DNA from: Umbelopsis isabellina
Lineage: Eukaryota > Mucoromycota > Umbelopsidomycetes > Umbelopsidales > Umbelopsidaceae
Reading direction: 5' to 3'
Length of the DNA: 64,000 nucleotides
NCBI GenBank assembly: GCA_016758905.1
Contig: JAEPQZ010000021.1
Location: 300,168-364,167, forward strand
The position numbers and the translations under genes were made by a program. The notes beneath the pieces are model-generated. The model did no database searches. It was not told the origin of the DNA and saw only the letters and a list, made by a program, of their open reading frames with translations. Below are positions 1 to 49,841 of this stretch, one piece after another; positions within the stretch are counted from its first letter, which is position 1, and each line of letters begins with the position of its first letter.

Positions 1-330
1 TGGAAGTAATGTAGTTGATGGTTTGCTGCATAGTCTGAAAGTGCTTTGATTATCAGCTGTATACATATCCTTTATATCAAACCTTCGCTAAGAAGCAAAA
101 AAACAAGAAATACGATCAAAGTGTGCAAGTAGCAACAATGTGAGGTTGGGAAGAACATATTGACAAAATTCAGCGGGTAACACTTCGATACGCCGTACTA
201 ACTCAGAGGTACAAACATAGGCTTTTTCAAAGGTTGCGCGCACACTCTTGCTTTCTGATGTTGAGGCTTTATTCTTGTCATTTGTAGTGAATAGGTAAAA
301 AAATAATAATTCTAGTATCAACCATGAGAG
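1..330. repeat. 3' tail of an upstream long repeat unit
   Basis: This stretch resembles the ends of the two long units further right. The segment around 88-150 matches about 6440-6520, and 220-325 matches about 6650-6745 and 16915-17020, including the shared text around TTCTTGT and the AGYGACAATGAG-like boundary motif. The next unit appears to begin directly after it, near 330. I see no credible gene here. The alignment was made by eye, so the exact boundary is approximate. Confidence 0.55.
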
Positions 331-584
331 AGAGTTCTCTCTCACCACACCCAAAAGCCCAACACCGAACAAGATGCCCAACTTCCAAGCGTTATTGTTT
401 TATGACACATTCAAAGCATCCTAAGAGCTGTACTTCTATCATAGAAATTGAATTCAAATATTCAATGGTTACAGCTACTTTGAAGCAAGTTCTAAAAATT
501 TCAGCTAAGATTCCAATGTTTAGTCTCGTAGTAATTGAGCTCGTCCCGTAAAGCTGATAGTTTTATATGTTCCGCCTTTGGTTT

Positions 585-835
585 GCTACATCTTGGGTAC
601 ATCTCGTATGCACTGACCTTTCCTCCGTAAAAATATACCATATAAGTAAAATATCATGTCCCTAATTTTCACTATGAATTAATTTGCATTTCCGTCTCAT
701 TGAAGCACTATAATACACCAAACATCATCTTTCTTCTTTCAATTCATCATACCTTACAAAAGATATGATTGATTACAAGTCATAGGATGCCCACGCCAAG
801 AAATTGTGATCAGTGCCTGGGCAAAAAAAACAAGT
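585..835. repeat. Dispersed ~250-bp repeat, copy 1
   Basis: The sequence from the TGCACTGACCTTTCC block to the GCCCACGCCAAGAAATTGTG block recurs at about 10790-11075 and 49235-49465 in the same order. Shared landmarks include ATATACCATATAAGTA, ATCATGTCC, ACACCAAACAT and TTCATCATACC. It forms the left part of long unit A but also occurs alone at 49 kb, so it is a separable element. Confidence 0.7.
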
Positions 836-1039
836 TACGGATCTAATTCCAACTCCGACCCGAGCACTTTCACCCTGTTCTTTGTGGCGTTTATTTTTGG
901 CTTTCCAGCAAGTAAGATTGATCCTGACAGCATAATTATATGTTAGTCAAGTTCTCATCGACGAAACGTATTCTTACTAAGAGAAACATCTTCAAATTAT
1001 TCAATTCAGACAACAAAAATATATGCAAAACGTTATATG

Positions 1040-1620
1040 AGGGAAAGGGACGCAAGTGAGATAGTTGACAATCTTTTCACTATAAGCTTCCCTTTCCCCG
1101 ACAATGGGTTTGTTCGCTCGCTATACGTTCCTTTAGGCTTGCCTCAAAAATCTCACTGAGAAGCAACACCTAAATAAAAACGGTCTCTTTCTTCAATTCA
1201 AAGCGATTGGATTCATTCAACCTTTCCCGAGTTGATCAGGAGACTTGGTGATAAGAAGTTGACAATCTTATCACCAAAGCGAGCTACTCTCTCTTTAATA
1301 TCGGTGTTCCCTCAAATTGACGTCCCTTTGCGTGAGCATCAAAGCTCCAAATAAGCACCAAAGCCAAGGATTATACTCTATACTTGTATACGTTCTCATC
1401 CTTTGGGCTCGACCAATTGTTCTAATTTAAAAAAAGACAAAACTTGGTGATACAGGATGGGCTCCTTATCACTAAACATGAACAATCTCGGTTGAAAATT
1501 GGTGCTCACTCATTGACGTCCTTCTAAAGTGGCTAAGAGCTCCAACTTAGCCTCCAATCCAATCGCAACACCATTGGACTGAACTGAACTGAATATTTGC
1601 AAAACAACTCGCAATCATCA
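1040..1620. repeat. Degenerate ~190-bp tandem repeats with AGTTGACAA hairpins
   Basis: Three degenerate repeats follow each other. Landmarks ATTGACGTCC and GAGCTCCAA/AAAGCTCCAA recur about 190 bp apart (near 1319 and 1515). The first repeat has a 10-bp outer stem GGGAAAGGGA/TCCCTTTCCC (1041-1050 and 1089-1098) enclosing loop AGTTGACAA at 1063. The second has a perfect 12-bp stem TTGGTGATAAGA/TCTTATCACCAA (1245-1256 and 1266-1277) with the same 9-nt loop. The third has a weaker stem near 1445-1480. The partner copy in unit B is at about 11264-11845. Confidence 0.7.
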
Positions 1621-2180
1621 GTAAATCATTTGGAACTATACTTGGTCATCTACTCATCAAGTATCGGGCCTAGCTGCAGTTCGCTATATCATATCAAAGT
1701 ACTGCATTCAACGAAAGACCAAAACGATTAAGAGCTATGTCAAGCTACGGTATGATACTATCGTACCAGGCTACGCAACCTTACGACCATAACGTCAAGT
1801 TTGCGAGCCATACTACAACGCAAAAAAAAAAAAAAAAACACAAAAACGTCCAAAGTTCTGACAAGTGCTTGATCGAATAGACATTGTATCGTCCTGACTA
1901 AATGGTTCGGCCAAACTACCGGCCAAACCTATTGATCTCATACTGGTCAATGTGTATGAGAAGTTGACAAACATGGAGGGCAAGCTTTCCACTAAACATG
2001 ATGGATCAAGATGGCAAACAATCAAAATACATCTAGGTCAATATCGCACAACAAACAAAAGCATTTAAATGCACATCAAACAAAAACCGCACAGACAAAA
2101 GCATCAAAAGAACGAGCAAATATGGACGATCTCTACAATGAGGTCTCCTGCAAATGAAGTTGACAAATGCTTCAACGTTC

Positions 2181-2898
2181 ATATCATATCATATCATATC
2201 ATATTATATTGTATCATCTCGCATTGCTATGGATTGTATACGGTACAATTAGTTGGGTAAGTATGGGGCTAGTACAACCTAGCAGCGTGATGATGGGCGA
2301 GATGTGCGAGACATCAGGGAGATAATGATCAGTCTGTTCTTGGTAAACCATCTGTTTGGCCAAAGTCAGTAAGGTTGGTCCAGCTTTCCTGGTACTAGAT
2401 GGGTAATGGGTACCAGATGCTTAAACTTTACTGCCTTAGGCATACCCCAAACTGGTACTAAGAACCGCAACGTATGATACGGTTTTTTTTTTATCGACAC
2501 CATGTTGATTCAACCAGTAATTAATAAAGTTGACAAACTGTTTGGGGCGAGATATTGGTTTCTGGTTAATGGGGAAAAGATTGCAATGACTGGTTGTGGA
2601 TAGGATTGGGGATTGCAACTGTTAGCGATGGGATGTTAACGCAGATGGTCACTGTCAGTCTGTCATGCATGGAGGACCCTTAGTTCTTAGTCCATTCTCG
2701 TTCCATTACCTGGAGACTAAACGAGAGTGGTGAGAACTCATTAGTTGGGCGGCCTTCTACAGCTTTTTGACATCGGTTTGGGGTGCACCCAAAGAGCTAA
2801 CGACCGCACATTCACAATCCATATTCACAATACTAGTAATCTGATTGAAGCGTAGTAATGCGAGACGATATGATATGATATGGTAGGATATGGTATAG
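2181..2898. mobile_element. TIR element copy 1 (MITE-like, ~0.7 kb)
   Basis: The left end carries ATATC-type repeats followed by GTATCATCTCGCATTGCTATGG. The right end (about 2848-2898) carries the imperfect reverse complement, GTAGTAATGCGAGACGATATGA. The interior shares conserved blocks with three other copies, such as GGTTGTGGATAGGATTGG and GTTGGGCGGCCTTCTACAGC. It contains no transposase-like frame, so it is either a non-autonomous DNA element or a structured noncoding unit. The ends were judged by eye and no clear target-site duplication was found. Confidence 0.55.
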
Positions 2899-3420
2899 GA
2901 GATGCTAGTCAGGACTATACAAAGTCAAAGAGTTACACGATACAAAACGAGGGAACACCAATAATGAGAGCATTCAAACTACATAAAGCAAGACATAATG
3001 GTAGGTATCAATAAAAGTTAGTGGGTACTTCGTTAACAAAACTAACTGAAGGTTGAATAGAAAAGATCTTGGGTTCATCTTTCAAAAGACGCATACAAAC
3101 TAAGAGCTTCAGACTGTTCAAATGTCCTTCAATGAACTACATATACAGCTGGCTAGACTCAAGACGCCAGCACCTTCCATACTTTTGTACAATGGAAGTA
3201 TCTTTATATGAGGGTCAAGCAAATCCCTTACAAACCGTTAGGAGAGAGCCAACATAACTCCAATAAAACAATGGAGACAATAAGAACAGAATGCTTTCAA
3301 AAGGCATACAATCAAATTGACAACAAGATAAACTCACTCAAACAAAACCATCAAAAGAACAAACAAACAAGGACGAGACTTACTAAAGTCTCAATAGAAA
3401 GCTTACAAAAGCTACATCAT

Positions 3421-4168
3421 TCATATTGTATCATATCATGCCATATTGTATCATCTCGCATTGCTATGGATTGTATACGGCACAATCAGTTGGGTAAGTA
3501 TGGAGCTAGTTCAACCTAGCAGGGAGATGATAATGGGCGAGTGGGCTAGCGCTGACCAGCAGCGCTATGTTGAACGAGGGAGAGAAGCCGCGAGAGTAAC
3601 TGTTAGTCTGTTCCTGGCAAACCATCTGTTTGGCCAAAAGTCAGTAAGGTGGGGTCCAGCTCCTCTGATTCTAGGCGGGTAATGGGTACTAGAGGCATTA
3701 AGCCTTACTGACTTGTGGCATACCCCAAACTGGTGCTAAGAACCGCTGAGGAATTATACATTCCTTTCAGTCAGTCGGCATCCAAGTTGATTGAACTGAT
3801 AGACTAATAGCTGAGGGGCTTGCGTTGGCGGTATATGTGATCTCGGTTATTGGGAAAAGATTGCGATGACTGGTTGTGGATAGGATTGGGGATTGCAACT
3901 GTTAGCTAAGGGATGTTAACGCAGATGGTCACTGTCAGTCTGTCATGCACGGAGGACCCTTAGTTCTTAGTCCATTCTCGTTCCATTACCTGGAGACTAA
4001 ACGAGAGTGGTGAGAACTCATTAGTTGGGCGGCCTTCTACAGCTTTTTGACATCGGTTTGGGGTGCACCCAAAGAGCTAACGACCGCACATTCACAATCC
4101 ATATTCACAATACTAGTAATCTGATTGAGGCATAGTAATGCGAGACGATATGATATGACATGATATAT
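3421..4168. mobile_element. TIR element copy 2 (MITE-like, ~0.75 kb)
   Basis: This has the same organisation as the copy at 2181-2898 and lies about 0.5 kb downstream in direct orientation. The left terminus holds ATATTGTATCATCTCGCATTG; the right terminus (about 4131-4168) holds its imperfect inverse, ATAGTAATGCGAGACGATAT. The last 270 bp are nearly identical to copy 1, while the middle diverges and contains an extra internal inverted repeat, GTCAGTAAGG/CCTTACTGAC. Confidence 0.55.
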
Positions 4169-4309
4169 ATAGTATAAATGGCATCAATTAAGGACATTTG
4201 AATTTGAAACTCTGTATGATACGAAAGAGGGAATACCAAAAAAAAAAAGAACGAAAATCTACCACGCCCATGCAAGTACGCAACCACAAGCCGTACAATG
4301 TAGCATGTC

Positions 4310-4860
4310 AAGAACAAAGCAAAGGAATCATATCAGGAAAGGCAAGAAATAGAGCTAAGGGAAAAAGCAAAGAAAAAAAGCAAAGAACAAAATATACACC
4401 AAAACCAAAGATTACAATCAAAGAAAGAAAGCAAATATAAAAAGCAAAGACAAAAAGCAAAGATAAAAGCAAAGAACAAAGCAAAGAAAAAAGCAAAGAA
4501 AGAAAGCAAAGAAAGAAAGCAAAGAAAAAAAGCAAAGAAAAAAAGCAAAGAGAAAAAGCAAAGATAAAAAGCAAAGATAAAAGCAAAGAGAAAAAGCGAA
4601 GAAAGAAAGCAAAGATAAAAAGCAAAGATAAAAGCAAAGAAAAAAAGCGAAGAAAGAAAGCAAAGATAAAAAGCAAAGATAAAAGCAAAGAACAAAGTAA
4701 CGAAAATAAGCATAACCAAGGAACATAACCAAGGATCATATCTAAGGACTACACCCAAGGACTAGACCCAAGGAACATAACTAAGGACTACACCCAAGGA
4801 CTACACCCAAGGAACATAACCAAGGAACATAACCAAGGACAACATCCAGGACTCTACCTA
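4310..4860. repeat. Polypurine (GCAAAGAAAAA)n and 13-bp CCAAGGACTACAC minisatellites
   Basis: About 4310-4700 consists of short units such as AAAGCAAAGA with runs of A on the plus strand, nearly free of pyrimidines except the periodic C. It is followed at about 4710-4850 by repeats built on CCAAGGACTACAC and CCAAGGAACATAA. Copy number differs from the partner array at 14545-15190. The complementary strand gives long open frames rich in Leu, Phe and Ala; these are an artefact of the composition. Confidence 0.85.
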
Positions 4861-6765
4861 AGCAATCAAGGAAAAACGTGAGTAAATCGAATCGTGCAGT
4901 ATACAGCTAATGAAATACTGACAAGCCTTGTACAGTATAACACTTAACATCACAGCTATGACTATCTCAAGTCTTTCAAATCATTCAACAACTTAAAGAC
5001 ATAACTCTCAATTACAAACAGCAACAACTGCTATGATCATCAGTCCAGTACTCAGTAACTTTACCTACACTCAGGTCAAATACTTAACAAAACAAAACGC
5101 CAGCTTGAAAAGGCCAAATCATACCAAAACACCATGACCACAAGACATGCTGTCTGCTAAAGCTAAAATAGATCTCAAGCCTCCTAATCTATCCAAGCAA
5201 CTCAAAGTACAGCGAATGGGACAAACAAAAGAAAGCGAACAAAAAGCAATCAAATCATACTTAAAACATACAAAGCCCCTCGTCCACTTCAGGAAAAAAA
5301 AAAAAAACAAAAACACTTGGAACATAATAAAAAAGATAAATCAAGACAATACGTCTTGAACACTACATCAACATCATTCTGGCTTGATAAAACACTGAGC
5401 ATATAAACCAAAAAAGTAAGTATAGTGCACTAGATTCAGAATGAGTATTGGGACCTTAGTACTAAGTTCATAACATCACAGCATCCACCAATCCGCCCTA
5501 CCTGGGTTCTCTGTTGGACTAGTTAGTTCATTTAGTTTGAAATTTCTCTTAAGACTTGTTAGAAATAGTCTACATAATAAATCCCCATGAATTCTTGAAA
5601 GCTTATAACAAAAGTTTTGACATGTGTGTTGATGAGAAGTGACAAAGTGGTCGTTTGGACCGTCAATAGTATTCAAATCTTTGATTACTTAACATTGTGA
5701 GTAAATTGACATTACAGATCTTAGCTGTAGATAATTCGTGATCAGCTTTTAGCTTTAGCGAAGTGGGGTAGAAAAAGAACGATGTTCTTTGAGTGTTTAG
5801 CATCTTTGTACTAGTGATCTTCCGAGGACTTTTGAACTAATATATTTGATATATTTTTGAAGTTACAAACTTTGAACTTGAGTGGATAGCTTTCTGAAAT
5901 TGTAATTCTTAACTTATAATTCTTAACTTATAACTTTGATCTAAGTAAGTCTAGGTAAATGACTGAGTAGCGACTATTGTAGTGTAGATGGCTAAGCAAA
6001 ATCAAACAATAACTATGAAATTTCTACCCTCGTATATCATTTCTTTAGTGTGAAGCTCTTTGATGATAAGTAGTTGGAGACAAGTATATTTGTTAGGTTG
6101 CAACTTTGCAATTTTTTTCCCTGCTGAAGCTATTCACTTTGACTCGGTGGGGAGAGGGAGAGGTGGCTAAATTGTAGATATTCGAAATGTCTCTAAGTGA
6201 AAAGCATACCAATATGTTGAAGCTAAAACAGAACTAAGAAAGCGATAAGCTATGAATAAGATAGTATCGATGTGGTAGTCCTTCATAGTGAGGCTAATTT
6301 TTGCTGAACAGCGGTGACAATATGAAATAAAGTGAAGAACACAGCACAAAAATCAAAAGCGAGAGAAAGAACAGCAAGCTAAAAATGGTTTAAGAATTTC
6401 AGCAGTAGCAGTATAATATTTTTTGATGTTGATGCTTGCTATCAATGAAGAAGAAAAAAAGATACAATCAAAGTGTACAAGTACAACCATGAGCGATTGA
6501 GAAGTGCAAATTGAACAAAAAAAACCAACGTTGTACACTCCGACACATCCTCAACACATCCTCAATACAGATTTAGACACTCCCCAATACGCTTCCCACC
6601 CCAAAAATATATACAAGCGAAAAAAACAGAAGTAAACACACTGCTGTTCAAGGATTGAGTTGATGTTGTTTCTTTCTGACTATGAAGCTTCGTTCTTGTT
6701 ATTTTGGAGTTAATTAAGCGGTTAAAATTTAGCGACAATGAGTATATTGCTATATTAGGTATATA

Positions 6766-8331
6766 TTACTTAAATTTTGTGAACACCCAAAATTCACAAA
6801 TGGTAGAATCAGAAGTAAAAATCAAGGCTATTTATAATTGCGTTGGCGGTGTTGCTTTAAATTCTAGAGCTTGACTCTTATCATATAAAGTAGGTGAGCT
6901 CAAAAATCTTTTCCTTATGCTAGAAACAGTATAAGGCACTACGCTGAGAAAAGGCTGTGAGGAGATTAAGTCACCACTACGATGAGACCTCATTAGAATG
7001 ATCAGCAACAGCCCTAGTTGGATATATATGATAGCCTAAAATAAGCTGATTAGAATGAAGCTATGCTTCCAAATATAGCTTTCAATAGTTTATAGCTGAA
7101 TAAGGATGACAATAGCAGTGACGTACAATGTATAACTTGATGGGTTCACTTCGAAGTTTCAAATTTCACCATGCATGCTTGCACTGAATTACATGGCTTA
7201 GCAGGTTTGACTGCATTTCTATTACCAGTATACGCCTTACTTGATGTGATTAGAAGCATTTTCATAGAGCAGAAGCGGCAGTTCAATCGTCAAGAATCGA
7301 ATGCTCAAGTAGCTTCATATTGCAGTAGAAAATTGAAAAACATGCTCACCACCATGAGTATGTATACCAATCCCAAATTTCTCTCTGAATTGCAAGATGT
7401 GGACCATATTCTACTAGTAGATCATTATCTGCGTTGCCTCCTTTATCGAAGCTCAGACATTGCTCCTCGATTTTTTTTCCGTCACCACTACTCTTCATAT
7501 TGGAGTTGCCATGGTGGGGCTTACGGTACAAAATTGTAGGTTTATGGTTTACGTGCGTGTATTTATGAATATGCAGGTGATTTGATCGAGGGTGTGTGAT
7601 GCGGCGTAGGAGTGTGTTCGTGAAGATAAATATAGCAAGTGAATATTTGTATTTTGTAAAATATTTGTACCAGATCATTTATGATATTAAATCTGATGAC
7701 AGTAACTTGGATCAACTTCTAGTTGAAAGTATTCGAAATTTGATCGTCTTTCTAGTCAGTGAGAACATATTGTGACTATATGGTAAAATTTAAACTGCTA
7801 CAATGTGCAGTTTTGGTAGACTCAATGTGGGGATTACCCCAATTTCTTTAACCTCCCCACAAAAATACTTCGGTGTTGCATTGGCAGTTTACTTGGTATA
7901 AAGTCGAAAGCTTGATAAAGTTTGCGACACGATAATCCTAGTGTTTTCCAATAAATCGAATTCACTACCCGTAAAGATCTATTCAACTCGTAAACATCTA
8001 TACAAGATACATGACGATATCGCCTTGTACAACCAGACAGTTTAATAAGTGATGTAGTGGTTCTCCGATGGACTGGGATCGACTTAATTATGCTAAGCAA
8101 GTCAATTTACCATACGTATGCAAGCCAATGTGGTCAGATTTCAATAGAAGAAACTATTGGAATATGTATTACCTCTACATAATAGCGCATATTACGACCA
8201 ATGATTTCCTTATAAGAAGTATTACTGTCACAGCCTTTTGCTAGGCATACGTTGCTGACAGCGCTACCATAGGCACTCCCATTCTGCTCAGTTCTAAAAA
8301 TCATTAACTTTTGCTCATTTTTTTTCTCCGT
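6766..8331. other. Unique AT-rich island upstream of the flavin oxidase gene
   Basis: This segment follows the end of repeat unit A and shows no match to either unit. Short open frames of 88-122 codons exist at 7171-7539 (+), 7346-7678 (-) and 7834-8100 (-), but none resembles a known family, has credible splice sites or shows a convincing start context. I see no gene here that I can support. Confidence 0.5.
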
Positions 8332-10086
8332 ATGAAAACCGCTGTAACTGAAAATATATATTCAATGGCCGCAATTGACACTCCTAGTATCTTTGAGGGT
8401 CAGCATGCTAAACTTTGCGACTATCCAAACAAACCACTCGGGGAGTTTAAGAGCTCCATAACAGTTGCAGTTGTTGGCGCTGGATTCACTGGCCTTCTCG
8501 CCGCCCGCTCTCTCGCAATGTGCGGCGCCAAAGTTGACCTCTATGAGAGAAATTCAAGGCCGGCAGGTCGTGCTCAGTCTAGACTATTAGCTCCCAACAT
8601 TACCACCAATCTCGGTCCCATGCGTCATGGAGATGGATATGGTGCGCTCAAGCGGACAATCGAATATTTCGGCTTCACATTTGGTAAAGAGTTTGAGAAC
8701 CCAGGGGTAGTACCGACTGCTGTCATCTACGATGGTTTAGTTTATAACCCAAGTGATAAAGATAACCTCCCTTGGCAAATCAAAGACGCTTTGAAAGGTT
8801 GGAAAGTAGTTGAAACTCAAGGTTTTGAAGTCAATGGTAGGAAGTATCCTTCGCTTGATCAGTTGCGGAATTGGCTGAGAATCGAAGATATGAGAGAGCG
8901 TCTTGAAAAGCATGAGGAGTTTGAAAGGTTCGTTGTCGATTTCGAACCTTTTAGCCTTCAGCAGTTTCTGGAACTAGTATTCGTCACAAATGACACCCCT
9001 CCAAACGAGAAAAATTGGACGAACGATACTATTAATGCCTTTGCTTCTTACTCTTTCAAAAACGGTAACATTGTCCCGTTTTTAGATTTGGGCTGCATGT
9101 GGTTCCTCAAATCAAGCATAAACGGTTGCGATGCCAACCAGGTAAACTTCTGCGAAATAAACGCAGACGGGAGCCGATCGTTGGGTGACTACCAAAGATT
9201 TTGCGACAAGCTTGTTGAAGAAGCTCGAGCTAAAGGTGCTTCGCTTTTCATGGACACTGAAGTTTCTTACGTTCACCGTCACAATCGTGCTCACGATTTG
9301 GCCAACTATACTCTTTACGGAAAAAACCAAGGAGGCAATATAAAGAAGTGCTACAATGAAATTGTTTTTGCCATACCTCCACCGGCACTGACTAAAATAA
9401 TTGACAATGGTAAAGGATTGCCTGAGACAATTTATCCTAATCCTATCTGTGATGCGATACGCAACATGCATATGATCAATGCTTTCAAAATTGAATGGCT
9501 AGTATCTAAGCAGCCATTCATAGAAGATCCCACATTAGTACGCTGCTTGCAAATGCCTGACACGCTTGGCCAAGTTTATATCCTAGAATGCAACAGTCAT
9601 CGTTTTCTCAAAGCTATGGTTTACACTTGGGGGGATAAGGCCGATAACATTGCAGCCCATCGTCCTGCAGATATGTATGAATATGCCATAGCATGTATTG
9701 AAAAAGAGTTCCATGGAACGTCAGTTGAGCCAATGATTCCGTGTTATAAGAAAGTTGAAGGTATTGGACGAGTTGAACAAGTGAACTGGAAAGACAATCA
9801 ATCGTCACAAGGAGCTGTTGCATATCCTCTACCGGGACAAGATAGATATGGCCAAAGAATTTTAAAGTTGTTCGTTGAAGGCAATATGCCACTAATCGCC
9901 GGTACAGGCTATTATGATGATGATTGGTGGAAATACTGCGACCGCAATAGCCAGCTCGCAACAATTAGTCTCATCAAGCGACACAAAGGTGTTATCTTTA
10001 ACAAAGACGTATCCGAATTAAACGGATTGGAGAAAGGTTTCTATCGATATTATGACGAATTCATGTCAGATAAAATTTTGAAATAG
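8332..10086 (+). CDS. Flavin amine oxidase / tryptophan 2-monooxygenase-like, intronless
   Basis: This predicts a 584-residue FAD-dependent amine oxidoreductase. The N-terminal dinucleotide-binding motif VVGAGFTGLLAARSL lies at about residues 45-59 and is followed by an acidic strand end (YERNSRPAGRAQS). A late GTGYYDDDWW segment corresponds to the C-terminal FAD-contact region of the family. The nearest remembered architecture is the L-amino-acid oxidase and tryptophan 2-monooxygenase group, but substrate cannot be read from sequence. The first true ATG is at 8332; ATG 8365 is also possible. There is no intron in 1.75 kb, unlike most multi-domain genes here, and no signal peptide. It is the only gene between two long direct repeats, suggesting insertion or transfer. 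Confidence 0.85.
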   Translation: MKTAVTENIYSMAAIDTPSIFEGQHAKLCDYPNKPLGEFKSSITVAVVGAGFTGLLAARSLAMCGAKVDLYERNSRPAGRAQSRLLAPNITTNLGPMRHGDGYGALKRTIEYFGFTFGKEFENPGVVPTAVIYDGLVYNPSDKDNLPWQIKDALKGWKVVETQGFEVNGRKYPSLDQLRNWLRIEDMRERLEKHEEFERFVVDFEPFSLQQFLELVFVTNDTPPNEKNWTNDTINAFASYSFKNGNIVPFLDLGCMWFLKSSINGCDANQVNFCEINADGSRSLGDYQRFCDKLVEEARAKGASLFMDTEVSYVHRHNRAHDLANYTLYGKNQGGNIKKCYNEIVFAIPPPALTKIIDNGKGLPETIYPNPICDAIRNMHMINAFKIEWLVSKQPFIEDPTLVRCLQMPDTLGQVYILECNSHRFLKAMVYTWGDKADNIAAHRPADMYEYAIACIEKEFHGTSVEPMIPCYKKVEGIGRVEQVNWKDNQSSQGAVAYPLPGQDRYGQRILKLFVEGNMPLIAGTGYYDDDWWKYCDRNSQLATISLIKRHKGVIFNKDVSELNGLEKGFYRYYDEFMSDKILK

Positions 10087-10789
10087 AATAAAGCAGTACA
10101 AATATTCGGACTTAACAGCCAAAAAATGTCGGATTACCTTAATATTTATCTTTTTTACAGGACTTGAACTGTTCGAGGCTTGCTCATGTTTTATACAAAA
10201 AACAGAGTTAAATATCATTACTTTTAGTAGCGACAAGGACACAAGTGCCATATTAAGAATACCTTTCCCTCGTTATGCCCTAGGAATCCAACGCCAGATC
10301 AAGACGCCCAATTTTCAAGCGTTATCTGTTTTATGACAATCTGAAAGCAGCTCAAAAGCAGTATTGTATACATAGAAGTCTAATTAAAATATGTAAATGT
10401 TATAACTTCTTCATATCAAGTACTGAGGATGTCGGCTATAAACCTCAATGCAAATTCTACCAGTAGTTCGAGCGCAGTCCATTAAGGCTAACCTTGAGGA
10501 GAGGATTTGCCTATCAATCATGCCAGTCGTGATAGTTACAAGTTAATTAGCAAATTGGTCATTTCTAATGAGGTAGTTGGATATACTGGCTATACGTATG
10601 TAACAGTCAACAGTGATCAAACTCTGGTATGTAAAGTACCAATTTGCGGCTATGTCAGCTAAAGAAAAAAATGCATAATATGAGCGTATAAAGAATTGAT
10701 GTCGACAGACACAGATATATCACTTGATCCATGTCTTTATCAGTGGTTTCTACAATTCGGCAGTCTACCTAACTTACATTTATATGTTC

Positions 10790-11075
10790 CTCCGTTGGGT
10801 TCCTTCTTTGCATTGCTTCGTTTTTTGGTACATTTCTCGTTGCACTGTCCTTTCCCCGATGAATATATACCATATAAGTAGAAATCATGTTCCTGGACGT
10901 TTCTATGTAATTTAAGTTGGCTTCGCACCCTATTGAGAAGTGTAGTAAACCAAACATTGTTTCTTATTTCAATTCATCATACCTCACAACATATATGATA
11001 ATTTAACACGTTACAGGGTGCTCACGGCAAAATTTGTATCTATGCTTGTGCCAAAAAAAGTTGGTCAAATTCTAA
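10790..11075. repeat. Dispersed ~250-bp repeat, copy 2
   Basis: This is the same element as at 585-835 and 49235-49465. Landmarks are TGCACTGTCCTTTCCCC, ATATACCATATAAGTAGAAATCATG, ACCAAACATTG, TTCATCATACC and a final GTGCTCACGGCAAAATTTGT block. Confidence 0.7.
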
Positions 11076-12405
11076 CTCCGACCCATGCACATCACCTTAT
11101 TCTTCGTGGCGTTTTTTTTTCTGGGATTATAGCAAGTAAGATTCATCCTGACAGCATATTTATATGCTAGTCAAGTTCTCATCGACGAAACGTATTCTTA
11201 CTAAGAGAAACATCTTCAAACTATTCAATTCAGACAACAAAAATATATGCAAAACGTTATATGAGGGAAAGGGGCGCAAGTGAGATAGTTGACAATCTTT
11301 TCACTATACGCTTTCCTTTCCCCAACAATGGGTTTGTTCGCTCGCTATACGTTCCTTTAGGCTTGCCTCAAAAATCTCACTGAGAAGCAACACCTAAATA
11401 AAAACGGTCTCTTTCTTCAATTCAAAGCGATTGGATTCATTCAACCTTTCCCGAGTTGATCAGGAGACTTGGTGATAAGAAGTTGACAATCTTATCACCA
11501 AAGCGAGCTACTCTCTCTTTAATATCGGTGTTCCCTCAAATTGACGTCCCTTTGCGTGAGCATCAAAGCTCCAAATAAGCACCAAAGCCAAGGATTATAC
11601 TCTATACTTGTATACGTTCTCATCCTTTGGGCTCGACCAATTGTTCTAATTTAAAAAAAGACAAAACTTGGTGATACAGGATGGGCTCCTTATCACTAAA
11701 CATGAACAATCTCGGTTGAAAATTGGTGCTCACTCATTGACGTCCTTCTAAAGTGGCTAAGAGCTCCAACTTAGCCTCCAATCCAATCGCAACACCATTG
11801 GACTGAACTGAACTGAATATTTGCAAAACAACTCGCAATCATCAGTAAATCATTTGGAACTATACTTGGTCATCTACTCATCAAGTATCGGGCCTAGCTG
11901 CAGTTCGCTATATCATATCAAAGTACTGCATTCAACGAAAGACCAAAACGATTAAGAGCTATGTCAAGCTACGGTATGATACTATCGTACCAGGCTACGC
12001 AATCTTACGACCATAACGTCAAGTTTGCGAGCCATACTACAACGCAAAAAAAAAAAAAAAAACACAAAAACGTCCAAAGTTCTGACAAGTGCTTGATCGA
12101 ATAGACATTGTATCGTCCTGACTAAATGGTTCGGCCAAACTACCGGCCAAACCTATTGATCTCATACTGGTCAATGTGTATGAGAAGTTGACAAACATGG
12201 AGGGCAAGCTTTGCACTAAACATGATGGATCAAGATGGCAAACAATCAAAATACATCTAGGCCAATATCGCACAACAAACAAAAGCATTTAAATGCACAT
12301 CAAACAAAAACCGCACAGACAAAAGCATCAAAAGAACGAGCAAATATGGACGATCTCTACAATGAGGTCTCCTGCAAATGAAGTTGACAAATGCTTCAAC
12401 GTTCA

Positions 12406-13126
12406 TATCATATCATATCATATCATATCATATTATATTGTATCATCTCGCATTGCTATGGATTGTATACGGTACAATTAGTTGGGTAAGTATGGGGCTA
12501 GTACAACCTAGCAGCGTGATGATGGGCGAGATGTGCGAGACATCAGGGAGATAATGATCAGTCTGTTCTTGGTAAACCATCTGTTTGGCCAAAGTCAGTA
12601 AGGTTGGTCCAGCTTTCCTGGTACTAGATGGGTAATGGGTACCAGATGCTTAAACTTTACTGCCTTAGGCATACCCCAAACTGGTACTAAGAACCGCAAC
12701 GAATGATACGGTTTTTTTTTATCGACACCATGTTGATTCAACCAGTAATTAATAAAGTTGACAAACTGTTTGGGGCGAGATATTGGTTTCTGGTTAATGG
12801 GGAAAAGATTGCAATGACTGGTTGTGGATAGGATTGGGGATTGCAACTGTTAGCGATGGGATGTTAACGCAGATGGTCACTGTCAGTCTGTCATGCATGG
12901 AGGACCCTTAGTTCTTAGTCCATTCTCGTTCCATTACCTGGAGACTAAACGAGAGTGGTGAGAACTCATTAGTTGGGCGGCCTTCTACAGCTTTTTGACA
13001 TCGGTTTGGGGTGCACCCAAAGAGCTAACGACCGCACATTCACAATCCATATTCACAATACTAGTAATCTGATTGAAGCGTAGTAATGCGAGACGATATG
13101 ATATGATATGGTAGGATATGGTATAG
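12406..13126. mobile_element. TIR element copy 3 (MITE-like)
   Basis: This is the near-identical counterpart in unit B of the copy at 2181-2898. The left-end ATATC microsatellite is longer than in unit A, showing slippage after duplication. The terminal inverted repeats and internal blocks are otherwise the same. Confidence 0.55.
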
Positions 13127-13647
13127 GAGATGCTAGTCAGGACTATACAAAGTCAAAGAGTTACACGATACAAAACGAGGGAACACCAATAATGAGAGCA
13201 TTCAAACTACATAAAGCAAGACATAATGGTAGGTATCAATAAAAGTTAGTGGGTACTTCGTTAACAAAACTAACTGAAGGTTGAATAGAAAAGATCTTGG
13301 GTTCATCTTTCAAAAGACGCATACAAACTAAGAGCTTCAGACTGTTCAAATGTCCTTCAATGAACTACATATACAGCTGGCTAGACTCAAGACGCCAGCA
13401 CCTTCCATACTTTTGTACAATGGAAGTATCTTTATATGAGGGTCAAGCAAATCCCTTACAAACCGTTAGGAGAGAGCCAACATAACTCCAATAAAACAAT
13501 GGAGACAATAAGAACAGAATGCTTTCAAAAGGCATACAATCAAATTGACAACAAGATAAACTCACTCAAACAAAACCATCAAAAGAACAAACAAACAAGG
13601 ACGAGACTTACTAAAGTCTCAATAGAAAGCTTACAAAAGCTACATCA

Positions 13648-14396
13648 TTCATATTGTATCATATCATGCCATATTGTATCATCTCGCATTGCTATGGATT
13701 GTATACGGCACAATCAGTTGGGTAAGTATGGAGCTAGTTCAACCTAGCAGGGAGATGATAATGGGCGAGTGGGGCTAGCGCTGACCAGCAGCGCTATGTT
13801 GAACGAGGGAGAGAAGCCGCGAGAGTAACTGTTAGTCTGTTCCTGGCAAACCATCTGTTTGGCCAAAAGTCAGTAAGGTGGGGTCCAGCTCCTCTGATTC
13901 TAGGCGGGTAATGGGTACTAGAGGCATTAAGCCTTACTGACTTGTGGCATACCCCAAACTGGTGCTAAGAACCGCTGAGGAATTATACATTCCTTTCAGT
14001 CAGTCGGCATCCAAGTTGATTGAACTGATAGACTAATAGCTGAGGGGCTTGCGTTGGCGGTATATGTGATCTCGGTTATTGGGAAAAGATTGCGATGACT
14101 GGTTGTGGATAGGATTGGGGATTGCAACTGTTAGCTAAGGGATGTTAACGCAGATGGTCACTGTCAGTCTGTCATGCACGGAGGACCCTTAGTTCTTAGT
14201 CCATTCTCGTTCCATTACCTGGAGACTAAACGAGAGTGGTGAGAACTCATTAGTTGGGCGGCCTTCTACAGCTTTTTGACATCGGTTTGGGGTGCACCCA
14301 AAGAGCTAACGACCGCACATTCACAATCCATATTCACAATACTAGTAATCTGATTGAGGCATAGTAATGCGAGACGATATGATATGACATGATATA
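13648..14396. mobile_element. TIR element copy 4 (MITE-like)
   Basis: This is the counterpart in unit B of the copy at 3421-4168. It differs by very few bases, including one extra G near 13771. It carries the same inverted termini around TCTCGCATTGCTATGG and the inverse near 14363. Confidence 0.55.
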
Positions 14397-14544
14397 TATA
14401 GTATAAATGGCATCAATTAAGGACATTTGAATTTGAAACTCTGTATGATACGAAAGAGGGAATACCAAAAAAAAAAAGAACGAAAATCTACCACGCCCAT
14501 GCAAGTACGCAACCACAAGCCGTACAATGTAGCATGTCAAGTAA

Positions 14545-15190
14545 CAAAGCAAAGGAATCATATCAGGAAAGGCAAGAAATAGAGCTAAGGGAAAAAGCAA
14601 AGAAAAAAAGCAAAGAACAAAATATACACCAAAACCAAAGATTACAATCAAAGAAAGAAAGCAAATATAAAAAGCAAAGACAAAAAGCAAAGATAAAAGC
14701 AAAGAACAAAGCAAAGAAAAAAGCAAAGAAAGAAAGCAAAGAAAGAAAGCAAAGAAAAAAAGCAAAGAGAAAAAGCGAAGAAAGAAAGCAAAGATAAAAA
14801 GCAAAGATAAAAGCAAAGATAAAAGCAAAGAACAAAGTAAAGAAAATAAGCAAAGAAAAAAATCAAAGAACAAAACCAAAGAACAAAACCAAAGAACAAA
14901 ATTTAAGAACAAAAGCAAATAACAGCATTAAAGAACAAAACCAAGGAACAAAACCAAGGAACAAAACCAAGGAACAAAACCAAGGATCATATCCAAGGAC
15001 TACACCTAAGGACTACACCCAAGGGCTAGACCCAAGGACTAGACCCAAGCACTACACCCAAGCACTACACCCAAGCACTACACCCAAGGACTACACCCAA
15101 GGACTACACCCAAGGACTACACCCAAGGACTACACCCAAGGAACATAGCCTAGGACAACATCCAGGACTCCACCCAGGACTTCACCTAAG
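14545..15190. repeat. Polypurine and 13-bp minisatellite arrays of unit B
   Basis: This is the partner of the array at 4310-4860. The polypurine part runs to about 14930. It passes into AACAAAACCAAGG repeats and then into a regular run of CCAAGGACTACAC units (about 15000-15140). The 13-bp array is longer than in unit A. Confidence 0.85.
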
Positions 15191-17045
15191 CAATCAAGGA
15201 AAAAATGTGGGGTAGATAAACAGTGCAGCATACAGGTTAATGAAATACTAACGAGCCTTCAATAGTAAAACACTTAAACCATAACTATGACTATTCAAAT
15301 CCCTCAATTCAGCATCTCGAGATATAACGCTAAACAACAAACTCAAGAAATCATATCAAACAAAACAATAATCTACATCAACACAAAGTCAATGTTGGAC
15401 TCTTAGAAGATTATAACAAACTTGAACAACTGCTATGAACATCAGCCCAGAACTCAAGAACTTTCCATACAATCGAGTGGAACTAAGGCATTCTCCATAT
15501 GCCAAACCATCAAACCCTCCAAACAATTTACAAGACAACACTTGAAGTGGCTAAATCATACCAAAACACAAACAAGCAAGCATGGCCTCTCTACTAAAGC
15601 TCAAATAAAATCTCAAGCCTCATATCCTATTCAAGCAAATAATCTAAAATGAAAGGGACAATCAAAAGAAAGCGAACAAAAGAAATAAAACAATACTCAA
15701 ATCATACAAAGTCCTTAATTCATTTGAAAGGAAAAAAACAAAAACACTTGGAACACAATACAAAATATAGTCAAGACAATACGTCCTGAACACTATATTA
15801 ACATCGTTAAGGGTTGATAATACATTGAGCATATAAATGCCAAACAGTAAGTAACAGTGCTCTAGATTCAGAATGAGCATCGAGGGCTTAGTACTAACTC
15901 TAAAACATTACAGCATCTACCAATACGCCTACCTGGGTTCTCTGTTGGACTAGCAGTTTGTTTAGTTTGAAGATCTCTCTTTAAGAGTTGTTAGAAATAG
16001 TCTACATAATAAATCCAAATAAAATCCTTGAAAGCTTATAACAAAAAATGTGACATAAGTGTTGATGAGAAGTGACAAAGTGGTTGTTTGGACTCTGGGT
16101 ATTCCAGTCTTTGAATACTTAACATTGCGATTCAGTTAACATTACAGATCTTAGCTGTAGGTAATTACTAATCAGCTTTTAACTTTAGCGAAGCATCTAG
16201 GAAACGAATGATGTGCTTAGAGTGCTTGACACTTCTCACTAGTAATTTTTTGAGAGGCTGCTTGAACTAATATATTGATAAACTTTTTAAAAGTTACAAT
16301 TTGAACTTGAATAGGCAGCGTACTGAAGTTGTAACACTTACTCTTGAATTTGACTAACTTAGCTTTTGGTAAATGGCTGATGAATGATGTATTGACTACT
16401 AAGCAAAATTGAATGATAGCAGCAAAATTTTTAGCATCGTATCTTCTTTCTTTAGTGAGAAGCTCTTTGGGGAAGGATAAAAGATATCAACATATATGCT
16501 GGGTTGCAAATTTGAATCTCTTTCCCAAGCTGAAACTTTTTCACGTTGATTGAGAGAGGAGAAGTTGGAAATGTCTACAAGTGAAGCATATCAAAGGTGG
16601 CGGTAAATTTGCGTATAGTGAAGAACACATTAGAAAATCAAGGCGAGAGGAAGCAAATTAAGAAAAAAATTAACATTTGGAGTTCAGCGGTATGGTGTTT
16701 CTTTTCCATTGAAGCTTAGTTCTCCAATGAAGAGCCAAAAAGGATAATTAAAAAATTTAGAAGATCAAAATGTTAAGTAGCGACAATGAGAGAGATTGGA
16801 AAGAGCACTTCGGAGTAAAAACCAGCCGGTACACTCCGATACATCCTCACTACATCTCAATCCGCTGGCATTAATTAGGAAGACCGATACAGAAGTTCAA
16901 AAAAGAGCTATTCAAGTGTTGCCCAGAGGCTATCAATTCATATATTGAAGCTTCTTTCTTGTTAGTTGAAGTAATTAAATGGTCAAAAACTTATAGTATC
17001 GACAATGAGAAGTTCGCTATATTAGGTATAGTGCCTCTAGCGGTG

Positions 17046-17674
17046 CCTAATAATCCCACACTCGTCAATATACCAACTTGCCAAACGGTATAGGTTTTGC
17101 GATACTCAAAAATAGCTCAAGAGCAGTTTTTCACCTAGGATGATAATTAAAATCCCTCGAATGCGACCAGTATTTTGCCTCAAACGCTGTAAATATCTGC
17201 CATAGACCTCGAAGACACTGGTATATTTTCAAGCATCAAAGAATAGTATAAATTCACCTATGAAGCCCATTTCTTTGATCGTGGAAAATTGTTAATTGCG
17301 TTGTACTGTCACTCAAGTGTTTCTACTAAAATATTTCTAGCAATCTCTACGTAGCACACAATTAACATTAGATACACAAAGAAAATGAGAGAATAGGATT
17401 GGAAAATTTACACATGCTTCAACAGATATACTCTGTGTGCTGTTATTCTGATTCAATTCGATAATCTTTATTAAGTCGTAATAAGCAAATTAGCTTAATA
17501 TGGCTATTTGGGATATCCAGGCTATATAAAATGTCACTTCTTTTATGAGTCAAATTTTACGCACCACCAACAAGGGCTAGCAAAAATTCGCCCCAACTGC
17601 GGGGCACAAACACGTGACACATCAAGTATACACAGCACCTGTCGGTCCAGCCTTGCTGATTTTATTGAACTCTA
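17046..17674. other. Intergenic, boundary between repeats and gene-dense region
   Basis: Unique AT-rich sequence between the end of repeat unit B and the Ugo1-like gene. I see no gene, RNA or clear regulatory signal. Confidence 0.4.
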
Positions 17675-47944: not shown

Positions 47945-49234
47945 TCCTAGACAACATCTTATATGTTCAGCTATGGCACAATCAATCTCAATAGGGACGA
48001 GCAAGGGGGATCAAGGGGCACCAATAGTATTGCCAAATTGAGCATAATGGTCAATACGTACGTTCAAAAGCTCGCTATCCCTTCCTGATCTCAGGGATTA
48101 AATGCAGGTATAAGTAGTGCACCATGTGCTAAGACTTTTCGGCTAGAAACTAATAATGTATATAGATCTATATCAAAAGAGTCAAACCAGACGCCGTAAT
48201 AAGGCTGTCGAGTATTAAGGTTTAAAACCTTGCCAGCTTATACCTTCATCAAAACTGTGGCTTATTACCGCATTACTATTATACAAATGATAGCATGGCC
48301 AGTGATCGACTGCGTTCTTTGATCTTCACTTTCTTTGCCGTATTGTTGTAAGTCATGCAGGCTTACGAGCTATTTTTATAGCTCAGACAATCAAGAATCG
48401 AGCGGCTTAAATTAGTCGGCTGTACGTATAAGGGACACTTTAAGCCAGATTGAATGCAGTATAGAGGTGAGCTGGACATTGTAAGCGGTAACCACTATGA
48501 TCCTTATACGCGTAATTATTTAGCACAGAATGCATATAAGTTTAATTCATGCTCGTGGTGCCATAGTAGCAGGTTCCAATCAGCCAAACAATGAATGTGC
48601 GAATACCGTGTACCAGAAACTCTAAATCAAGCGTTCTCACATCAAAGCCCAAAACAATTGAAATTAATTGAGAGTTATAGTGCAATAAACACGCACCACC
48701 AAGATGTTGAACGGACCCTTTTGTGCAGTTTGATGACGACAACACAACAGATTGATTATAGCTACCGAGGAAAAGCTCACATACAATGCCATATTCATCT
48801 CACTTCATGGCCCGCTACTTCCATAATTCCTTATTGCGCTCCGCAGTCGATCTGCTTTGAACCTTGTGGATCATAATCTGTTTTTGAAGTTTCTGTATCT
48901 TGAGATGACAATGCCTACTATAGCAATAGGCTCATTGTCGATACTACAAGTTTGACCGTATATCATCTCAAAACAAGGACTAAGCTTCAGATCTGAAAGC
49001 ATCACCGTCAACGCAACCCTTACATAGCCATTTTTTTGCTTCTATTTCTTACATTTGTGAATTTCTTGAGATAGAGAGTGCATTGTGAAAGTATGTTGTG
49101 CTTTTTCTCGTTATCCTCTTCGCATCCATTCGTTGTTATCACTTTTTAATTTGATCGTAATTTTTTTTTTTGCTTATTCATTGAGTATCAAGCCTCAATG
49201 TTCAGAAGAATTATATTGCTACAATGCTCAACTC
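47945..49234. other. Intergenic, 1.3 kb, no secure gene
   Basis: At 48295 an ATG starts a signal-peptide-like stretch (SLIFTFFAVL) that runs into a good donor GTAAGT at 48350, but I found no downstream exon that continues it. Other frames (48542-48876) are unrecognised. Long T runs occur near 49160. Confidence 0.35.
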
Positions 49235-49465
49235 TGTCTTGTGCACTGACCTTTCCTCGGTAAATATTATACCATATCAGTAAAACATCATGTCCCTGCA
49301 CTTTTTCTATGAAATTTAATCCAGCTTCCCACCATATTGAGCAGTGCAGTACACCAAACATTGTCTTTTTTCCATAAATTATTATACCTTACAACATAGA
49401 TGATAATTTATAAGTTATACAGTGCCCACGCCAAGAAATTGTGATCAGTGCTTGGGACAAAAGAA
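49235..49465. repeat. Dispersed ~250-bp repeat, copy 3 (solo)
   Basis: This is homologous to 585-835 and 10790-11075. It shares TGCACTGACCTTTCC, ATTATACCATATCAGTAAAA, CATCATGTCCCTG, GTACACCAAACATTGTC and GCCCACGCCAAGAAATTGTG. Here it stands without the rest of the long repeat unit. Confidence 0.7.
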
Positions 49466-49841
49466 AAAGTTTACCAGTGTGTATCAAATCATGTTAAGTG
49501 ATATCATTTGTCAGATGACCATAGAATATATGAGCAATGATCCTACCATTGATTACAAAGACGATCAGCTTTGCAGTCTCTTCTTAAGCACCATTCTGAA
49601 TTTTCAGAACTGCAAAACGACAAATATTTCAACAAACAGTTGTTCTCACTACCATTAGATTTCATTGCTTTCAGTACTTTGGACAGTTATAAAGAGCCTT
49701 CATATTCGTACGAGCTGCCAAAACATTAGCTGGTTGTTGCAACTCCACCTATAGGTAATGAGCCCATTGAATGAAAGGAAATTTCTGAAATGTGTCTACT
49801 TGATTTATTGGATATGGCATAAAAATGGTGTTATCAAAAAG
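49466..49841. other. 3' flank of the amylase gene
   Basis: Unique sequence between the solo repeat and the amylase stop codon. A 78-codon frame ends at 49658 and is unrecognised. Confidence 0.35.

Follow-up and report, generated by a model that had tools for sequence, protein, structure and literature searches.

In the window, that is the whole stretch of 64,000 nucleotides from Umbelopsis isabellina that was analysed, two long direct units, A and B, share a nearly identical core set in strongly diverged flanks (table 1). The pattern is probably the outcome of recent gene conversion of the core within an old array, the core being hairpin-rich and, with about equal chances for and against, the template of an RNA. 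The array is close to a chromosome end. The units look noncoding and seem low-copy; a genome search returned A, B and, on contig C1, a single diverged relative (best candidates only, and thus a lower bound).

A sequence-only reading of the same DNA had described two long direct units, preceded at the very start of the window by the tail of a third. Self-comparison and alignment show A and B to be homologous end to end, and the opening segment does match the unit tail. Further pieces are found 32 kb from the units, where an inverted tail is joined to a head on the + strand, and positions 1-17060 have no blastn match in the 20 kb that precede the window. The head element of unit A appears promoter-like by eye, with a CT-rich stretch after a TATA-like CATATAAGTA. 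The amine oxidase gene lies between the units, outside the repeat, and gave one match in the genome search.

Table 1. Features of the window and identity between units A and B (fraction of sites, in unit A coordinates); the nhmmer query was the A/B unit profile.
Feature	Position	Strand	Basis or remark
Tail fragment of an upstream unit	45..329	+	nhmmer E 1.7e-15
Unit A	330..6765	+	self-comparison, alignment, nhmmer
Head element, unit A	600..845	+	common to 10834-11060 and 49233-49480
Putatively homogenised core, unit A	907..4343	+	alignment identity; change points 944, 1101
Perfect 12-bp hairpin, loop AGTTGACAA (example from core)	1245..1277	+	
Module a of core, A/T-rich inverted repeats at ends	2180..2897	+	self-comparison
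Module b of core, tandem duplicate of module a	3417..4176	+	self-comparison
13-bp minisatellite, unit A; right border of the putatively homogenised tract	4344..4853	+	repeat comparison
Diverged right flank and tail, unit A	4854..6765	+	alignment
Possible partial second tail, directly after unit A	6790..6905	+	6790-6872 vs tail copy 48982-49064, E 2.9e-7; 6802-6905, nhmmer E 1.8 only
Flavin amine oxidase gene, 591 aa, intronless, single-copy	8311..10086	+	Pfam Amino_oxidase E 3.8e-18
Unit B	10260..17045	+	self-comparison, alignment, nhmmer
Putatively homogenised core, unit B	11131..14573	+	alignment identity
13-bp minisatellite, unit B	14574..15190	+	length and repeat order unlike unit A
Possible truncated further unit, start part	17066..17217	+	nhmmer E 0.0007 only
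Unit tail fragment, inverted	48907..49240	-	nhmmer E 4.1e-25
Unit head fragment	49236..49471	+	nhmmer E 1.9e-46; 79% blastn match at 49242-49471
A/B identity, left flank	330-599; 600-906		0.600; 0.736
A/B identity, core	907-1100; 1101-2473; 2474-4343		0.959; 0.997; 1.000
A/B identity, right flank	4854-5500; 5501-5940; 5941-6380; 6381-6765		0.766; 0.793; 0.630; 0.620

In the near flanks, 309 of the 1330 aligned sites are substituted, compared with 4 of 3242 between 1101 and 4343 and none of 1869 between 2474 and 4343; Jukes-Cantor distances are ~0.28 for the near flanks and ~0.0012 for the core, a core/near flank ratio of 0.0044. The core had been said to differ at about a dozen sites, and the alignment of 907-4538 with 11131-14768 contains 12 substitutions, eight of them in 920-1100 and the others at 1779, 1989, 2038 and 2473; as far as 4343 the copies also differ by four indels, namely a TCATA unit at 2179, T at 2483, G at 3543 and T at 4313. 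A two-change-point model is better than even identity along the units by ~475 lnL units, and a single, even recent duplication, which the sequence-only reading had also rejected, is ruled out by this fit together with the diverged flanks.

At the left edge, the fit places a change point at ~944 and a second step at 1101, the latter matched in 0 of 2000 permutations. The 12 core substitutions are non-uniformly distributed (KS p 7e-5; Fisher p 3.6e-8 for 8/194 versus 4/3243 as entered, the true count being 3242), and leftward from the minisatellite divergence steps through 0/1869, 4/1373, 8/194 and 77/292 sites, although the gradient within 1101-4538 rests on four substitutions (KS p 0.067; 4/1373 versus 0/1869, p 0.032). 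As to the right edge, earlier set at 4690 in unit A and 14830 in unit B, the near-identical core stands but its border does not, since it falls inside the 13-bp minisatellite, where the alignment is ambiguous; repeat-for-repeat homology, as read by eye, reaches ~4705 in A and ~14855 in B.

The core contains two modules, a and b, each bounded by inverted repeats (one example being 44 nt with 82% complementarity), and the similarity of a to b continues beyond these repeats. Over 2062-2566, a differs from b by 4-57% per 50-column window (the 57% window has just 23 aligned sites, and the next highest value is 51%), whereas between units A and B the same interval shows one substitution and two indels. 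The core and its C1 relative are identical at 517 of 762 aligned sites (68%), with short near-invariant blocks, and of the long homopolymers A17 and A11 are equal in A and B while T10 faces T9. The right parts of the modules (~2567-2866 versus 3848-4146) are 96-100% identical per window, their flanks less so; a near-identical right part in diverged flanks repeats the A/B pattern one scale down.

The high-identity tract is thus bounded on both sides by collinear, diverged, homologous flanks, the arrangement that points to gene conversion. The sequence-only reading had left the choice between conversion and selection; the former is now favoured and the latter, acting alone, is unlikely, as indirect evidence suggests that core identity exceeds what constraint would explain. 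Purifying selection alone, whereby the core would be a functional RNA held unchanged in both copies, is consistent with the predicted RNA structure of the core, absent from the right flank, and with the conserved blocks of the C1 relative; it is nevertheless very improbable, because the modules differ strongly where A and B are near-identical, the stretch free of substitutions belongs to a core that varies against C1, and two of the three long homopolymers, the 17-A and 11-A runs, have kept the same length. An assembly or polishing artefact, in which one core's reads served to build both units and gave the second a false copy, is unlikely: the right edge does lie in a low-complexity minisatellite, where assemblers might switch path, and of the four small indels in the core three are single-base, two of them in runs, as sequencing errors would be, but a 5-bp unit and 12 substitutions still distinguish the copies, identity at the left edge drops stepwise over ~200 bp with no single point, and repeat order is unlike between the two minisatellites. 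That a mobile core was newly inserted at the same site in two older diverged units is hardly credible: inverted repeats at the module ends recall small DNA transposons, but only two copies and one diverged relative emerged among the best candidates in the genome, a/b similarity extends past those repeats, a transposase-like ORF is lacking and the left edge is graded. A MITE-like or otherwise abundant transposon was rejected in view of the few copies found (a lower bound) and of homology running past the inverted repeats.

The preferred reading, recent conversion within an old array, would start from an ancient tandem array of a ~6.5 kb noncoding unit, of which units A and B and the fragments would be the survivors; the middle of one unit (~3.2-3.4 kb) would then have been copied recently over the middle of the other through interlocus gene conversion. 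The stepwise leftward divergence points to polarity and to more than a single event. Conversion may have begun in or close to the minisatellite or the inverted-repeat modules, initiation in the minisatellite being suggested by position alone. Its direction at 1779, 1989 and 2473, judged by eye from the alignment at these three sites, is mixed. If the core is an RNA gene, such conversion would keep its two copies alike.

A protein-coding gene was rejected on short frames, gap lengths and a Pfam scan. Outside the minisatellite, no stop-free frame in the core exceeds 120 codons, and the one of that length, when scanned, gave no match in Pfam; longer frames, reaching 197 codons, run into the low-complexity minisatellite. 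Multiples of three are the exception among gap lengths (1/11, 8/32 and 4/19). Nor is a known RNA family recognized: no Rfam 15 match in the window reaches the gathering score, and the two matches at E <=3 within 560-6800 are far below gathering scores and both outside the core. No tRNA was found in the window. A telomerase RNA for TTTAGGG telomeres was rejected, as no CCCTAAA-repeat template of at least 9 nt occurs on either strand of 1-17045 or of L007 7382-8175. Plasmid records gave no match to 1000-4300 at E 1e-5, and viral contigs no exact match to a conserved 26-place pattern. Literature searches found nothing on TTTAGGG with Umbelopsis or with Mucoromycota, and among the matches listed no title on the locus.

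Folding was scanned in 200-nt half-overlapping windows, with z computed against dinucleotide shuffles. In the core, z<-2 is reached by 14 of 32 windows on the + strand and 2 of 32 on the - strand, against 6/154 in the background and 1/19 on each strand of the right flank. In non-overlapping core windows the + strand is lower than the - strand (p 0.0067), and the - strand, too, exceeds the background somewhat in stability (p 0.006). The + strand is predicted to form 17 hairpins, or nine if only Watson-Crick pairs are allowed, versus 6.8 (sd 2.35) and 3.0 (sd 1.7), respectively, in shuffles. Besides the example at 1245-1277, predicted hairpins of the core lie at 1749-1767, 1936-1961 and 3547-3567. 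The loop AGTTGACAA occurs five times per core, once more in the window (23680) and nowhere on the window's other strand. Predicted structure in the core exceeds both shuffles and local background; the C1 relative lacks a window signal (z<-2 in 2/20 and 1/20 windows) and has z -0.04 when 341 nt are folded whole.

From these fold predictions, the core has roughly an even chance of being a structured long noncoding RNA gene, read mainly from the + strand. It is quite possible, if short of probable, that conversion took place in a core devoid of functional RNA, made of hairpin-rich DNA, for instance a fragile site or clustered binding sites, which is compatible with the conversion part of the preferred explanation. 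Whole module b folds similarly on both strands (z -4.45 and -4.47), as does module a with its ends trimmed (z -2.26 and -2.40); GU pairs show no excess over AC mismatches (14 versus 12, p 0.27), and for the three sequences a, b and C1 the covariation term from RNAalifold was +1.36, i.e. no support, with two-sided change in 4 of 60 pairs. These results, like the missing window signal in C1, agree with hairpin-rich DNA, but the + strand is favoured by both window folds and hairpin counts. A more elaborate proposal, a new ~3.4 kb hairpin-rich lncRNA gene whose two copies are kept identical by repeated, polarised conversion seeded at the adjacent 13-bp minisatellite, is doubtful; if true, a noncoding RNA gene pair would bear its own homogenising hotspot.

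If conversion of the core is right, the locus would clearly exemplify, in nature, noncoding tandem duplicates that have avoided diverging only in the part that may encode a structured RNA, and would supply a candidate conversion initiation site at one tract edge; the amine oxidase gene, set between near-identical 3.4-kb direct repeats, is predicted to undergo loss or amplification at a rate that can be measured.

In concerted evolution of the rDNA type, tandem units of a noncoding RNA are kept alike; here, in contrast, there are just two full units, and their flanks have escaped homogenisation. The Saccharomyces flip/flop region consists of two near-identical 4-kb inverted repeats that are continually homogenised (PMC9731477), and thus resembles the present locus in having few-kb repeats homogenised at one fungal site with other genes in between; however, those repeats contain sporulation genes that code for proteins, and the region is subject to inversion, whereas units A and B are noncoding-looking and direct, and therefore a crossover between them would delete or duplicate the intervening segment. 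In the study on palindrome P6 of the human Y, the arms of MSY palindromes are more than 99.9% alike via conversion, with P6 tracts of 2068 bp on average and a maximum above 9 kb (PMC3723533), a range that includes the 3.4-kb tract found here, although P6 has inverted arms and events counted from population data, whereas units A and B are compared in one assembly.

Two direct, apparently noncoding repeats, unit A (330-6765) and unit B (10260-17045), align collinearly, as the sequence-only reading had claimed of them from end to end, and the 12 substitutions counted in 907-4538 bear out its 'about a dozen sites' for the nearly identical core (907-4343 in A, 11131-14573 in B). Fitting two change points raises lnL to -1028.3 (even identity, -1503.9); on the left, identity steps up near 944 and again at 1101. 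The fit covered the sequence outside the 13-bp minisatellite, so that its right edge (4874) places the step at or in the minisatellite. The minisatellite repeats, grading from AAGAAAAAAAGCA-like to CCAAGGACTACAC-like, match one to one between units up to ~4538, beyond which, by eye, a 51-bp block is present in additional copies in unit A and other repeats stand in unit B, with homology recognisable (also by eye) to about 4705/14855. A genome search with 14560-15500 matched just units A and B at E 0.001, a weak result because the search skips simple repeats. The G+C content is 0.41 in the core (1101-4343) versus 0.32-0.37 in the near flanks; a higher value is what GC-biased conversion might give.

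Features of the repeat array and its surroundings (window coordinates; A/B rows in unit A coordinates)
Feature	Position	Observation
A/B substitutions	330-599	108/270 sites; large length difference
A/B substitutions	600-906	77/292 sites
A/B substitutions	907-1100	8/194 sites
A/B substitutions	1101-2473	4/1373 sites
A/B substitutions	2474-4343	0/1869 sites
A/B substitutions	4854-5500	147/628 sites
A/B substitutions	5501-5940	85/410 sites
A/B substitutions	5941-6380	110/297 sites
A/B substitutions	6381-6765	129/339 sites
13-bp minisatellite, start	4344 (A) / 14574 (B)	both units
Unit tail fragment	45-329	
Flavin amine oxidase gene	8311-10086	intronless; one match in genome search
Unit head, doubtful	17066-17217	
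Inverted tail joined to head	48907-49471	

A single duplication predicts even identity and is rejected, the A/B identity being uneven. Selection alone would need nearly every core site to be frozen, but across 2062-2566 the tandem modules a (2180-2897) and b (3417-4176) inside the core differ by 4-57% per 50-column window (the 57% window holds 23 aligned sites, the next highest reaching 51%), while A and B differ there by one substitution and two indels, and a diverged relative on another contig, C1, differs from the core at roughly one site in three. Runs of 17 A and 11 A are exactly equal in length in the two units; a T run and a TCATA array each differ by one unit. Most likely, interlocus gene conversion acted recently between these noncoding tandem duplicates; the core Jukes-Cantor distance is 0.44% of that of the near flanks, and homogenisation is therefore recent relative to how old the array is. 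Divergence rises leftward in steps, which fits repeated conversion events with polarity from the right, the polarity signal within 1101-4538 being weak (four sites, KS p 0.067).

The same pattern recurs at smaller scale, in modules a and b. Per-window identity between the two modules reaches 96-100% over ~2567-2866 versus 3848-4146, and is 43-96% (left) or 63-65% (right) outside that stretch. Because this near-identical stretch within diverged surroundings is common to both units, an earlier exchange between the modules, or local constraint, predates A/B homogenisation.

The tail of a third unit, noticed earlier at the window start, was found as the fragment at 45-329; unit A is possibly followed by part of a second tail (6790-6872). 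The joined inverted tail and head, a rearranged relic of the unit, adjoins an alpha-amylase gene 32 kb from the array, which formerly comprised probably at least three units. Genome searches beyond the window found one relative, at ~C1:560381-561174 (7382-8175 of L007, the stretch holding it), which matches 1500-2400 at 517 of 762 aligned sites; the searches score best candidates only, so this count is a lower bound. About 3 kb from it lies a 73-bp tandem array (7.4 copies, L007 3835-4374), unlike the 13-bp array of the unit, and the sequence adjoining the relative has short dispersed matches at C23:304781-304901 and C2:241178-241245.

The core may encode an RNA, at about even chances, and is the part deserving follow-up. 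The minisatellite set aside, the longest frame without a stop in the core has 120 codons; Rfam gave no match at threshold and a tRNA search found none. In 200-nt half-overlapping windows, each against 30 dinucleotide shuffles, the core has 14/32 at z<-2 and 6/32 at z<-3 on the + strand versus 2/32 and 1/32 on the - strand, and the background (17.4-63.4 kb) 6/154 and 4/154; z<-2 is reached by 1/19 on either strand in the right flank, and by 2/8 (+) and 1/8 (-) in the left part (1-906). In 17 non-overlapping core windows both strands differ from background (+ p 4.8e-6, - p 0.006) and from each other (p 0.0067). The + strand of 907-4200 holds 17 short hairpins where shuffles give 6.8 (sd 2.35); the - strand holds 12, its shuffles giving 9.8 (sd 2.6). 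Counting Watson-Crick pairs only, there are 9 hairpins where shuffles give 3.0 (sd 1.7); the region around the relative on C1 has 4, its shuffles giving 1.3 (sd 1.1). By eye, one hairpin keeps its stem CTCATAC/GTATGAG with a different loop between unit A and C1, and another has the loop CATCT in both modules and in C1. The 9-mer AGTTGACAA has five copies in each core, all on the + strand (1063, 1257, 1962, 2158 and 2528, with the corresponding positions of unit B), and a single one in the rest of the window; the copy at 1257 forms the loop of a 12-bp hairpin. Against an RNA count the lack of covariation support for helices, of a GU-pair excess in the strand test and of a window fold signal in the C1 relative (z<-2 in 2/20 on + and 1/20 on -). 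So does the finding that module b, taken whole, and module a, trimmed, each fold as well on one strand as on the other.

The window spans C14:300168-364167 of an assembly of 22.03 Mb in 24 contigs, and a TTTAGGG-type (plant-type) telomere repeat of ~200 bp closes the contig (63797-64000), about 47-63 kb from the units; degenerate copies lie just inside the terminal array, and the host genes look fungal, perhaps of an early-diverging lineage. Pfam identifies a polysaccharide deacetylase (presumably chitin-type), MFS transporters and the alpha-amylase, a mitochondrial-carrier-like protein scoring just under the cut-off; several genes are apparently split by introns. The 3.5-kb segment at the A/B boundary carries the single-copy amine oxidase gene, for which a search of solved structures at E 1e-5 gives just tryptophan 2-monooxygenase (4iv9, E 5e-18) and an L-amino acid oxidase/monooxygenase (3we0). 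The gene was possibly gained horizontally, and the near-identical direct repeats flanking it could excise it. The case is real and well delimited: conversion, its most likely cause, is a known process, here on an unusual substrate.
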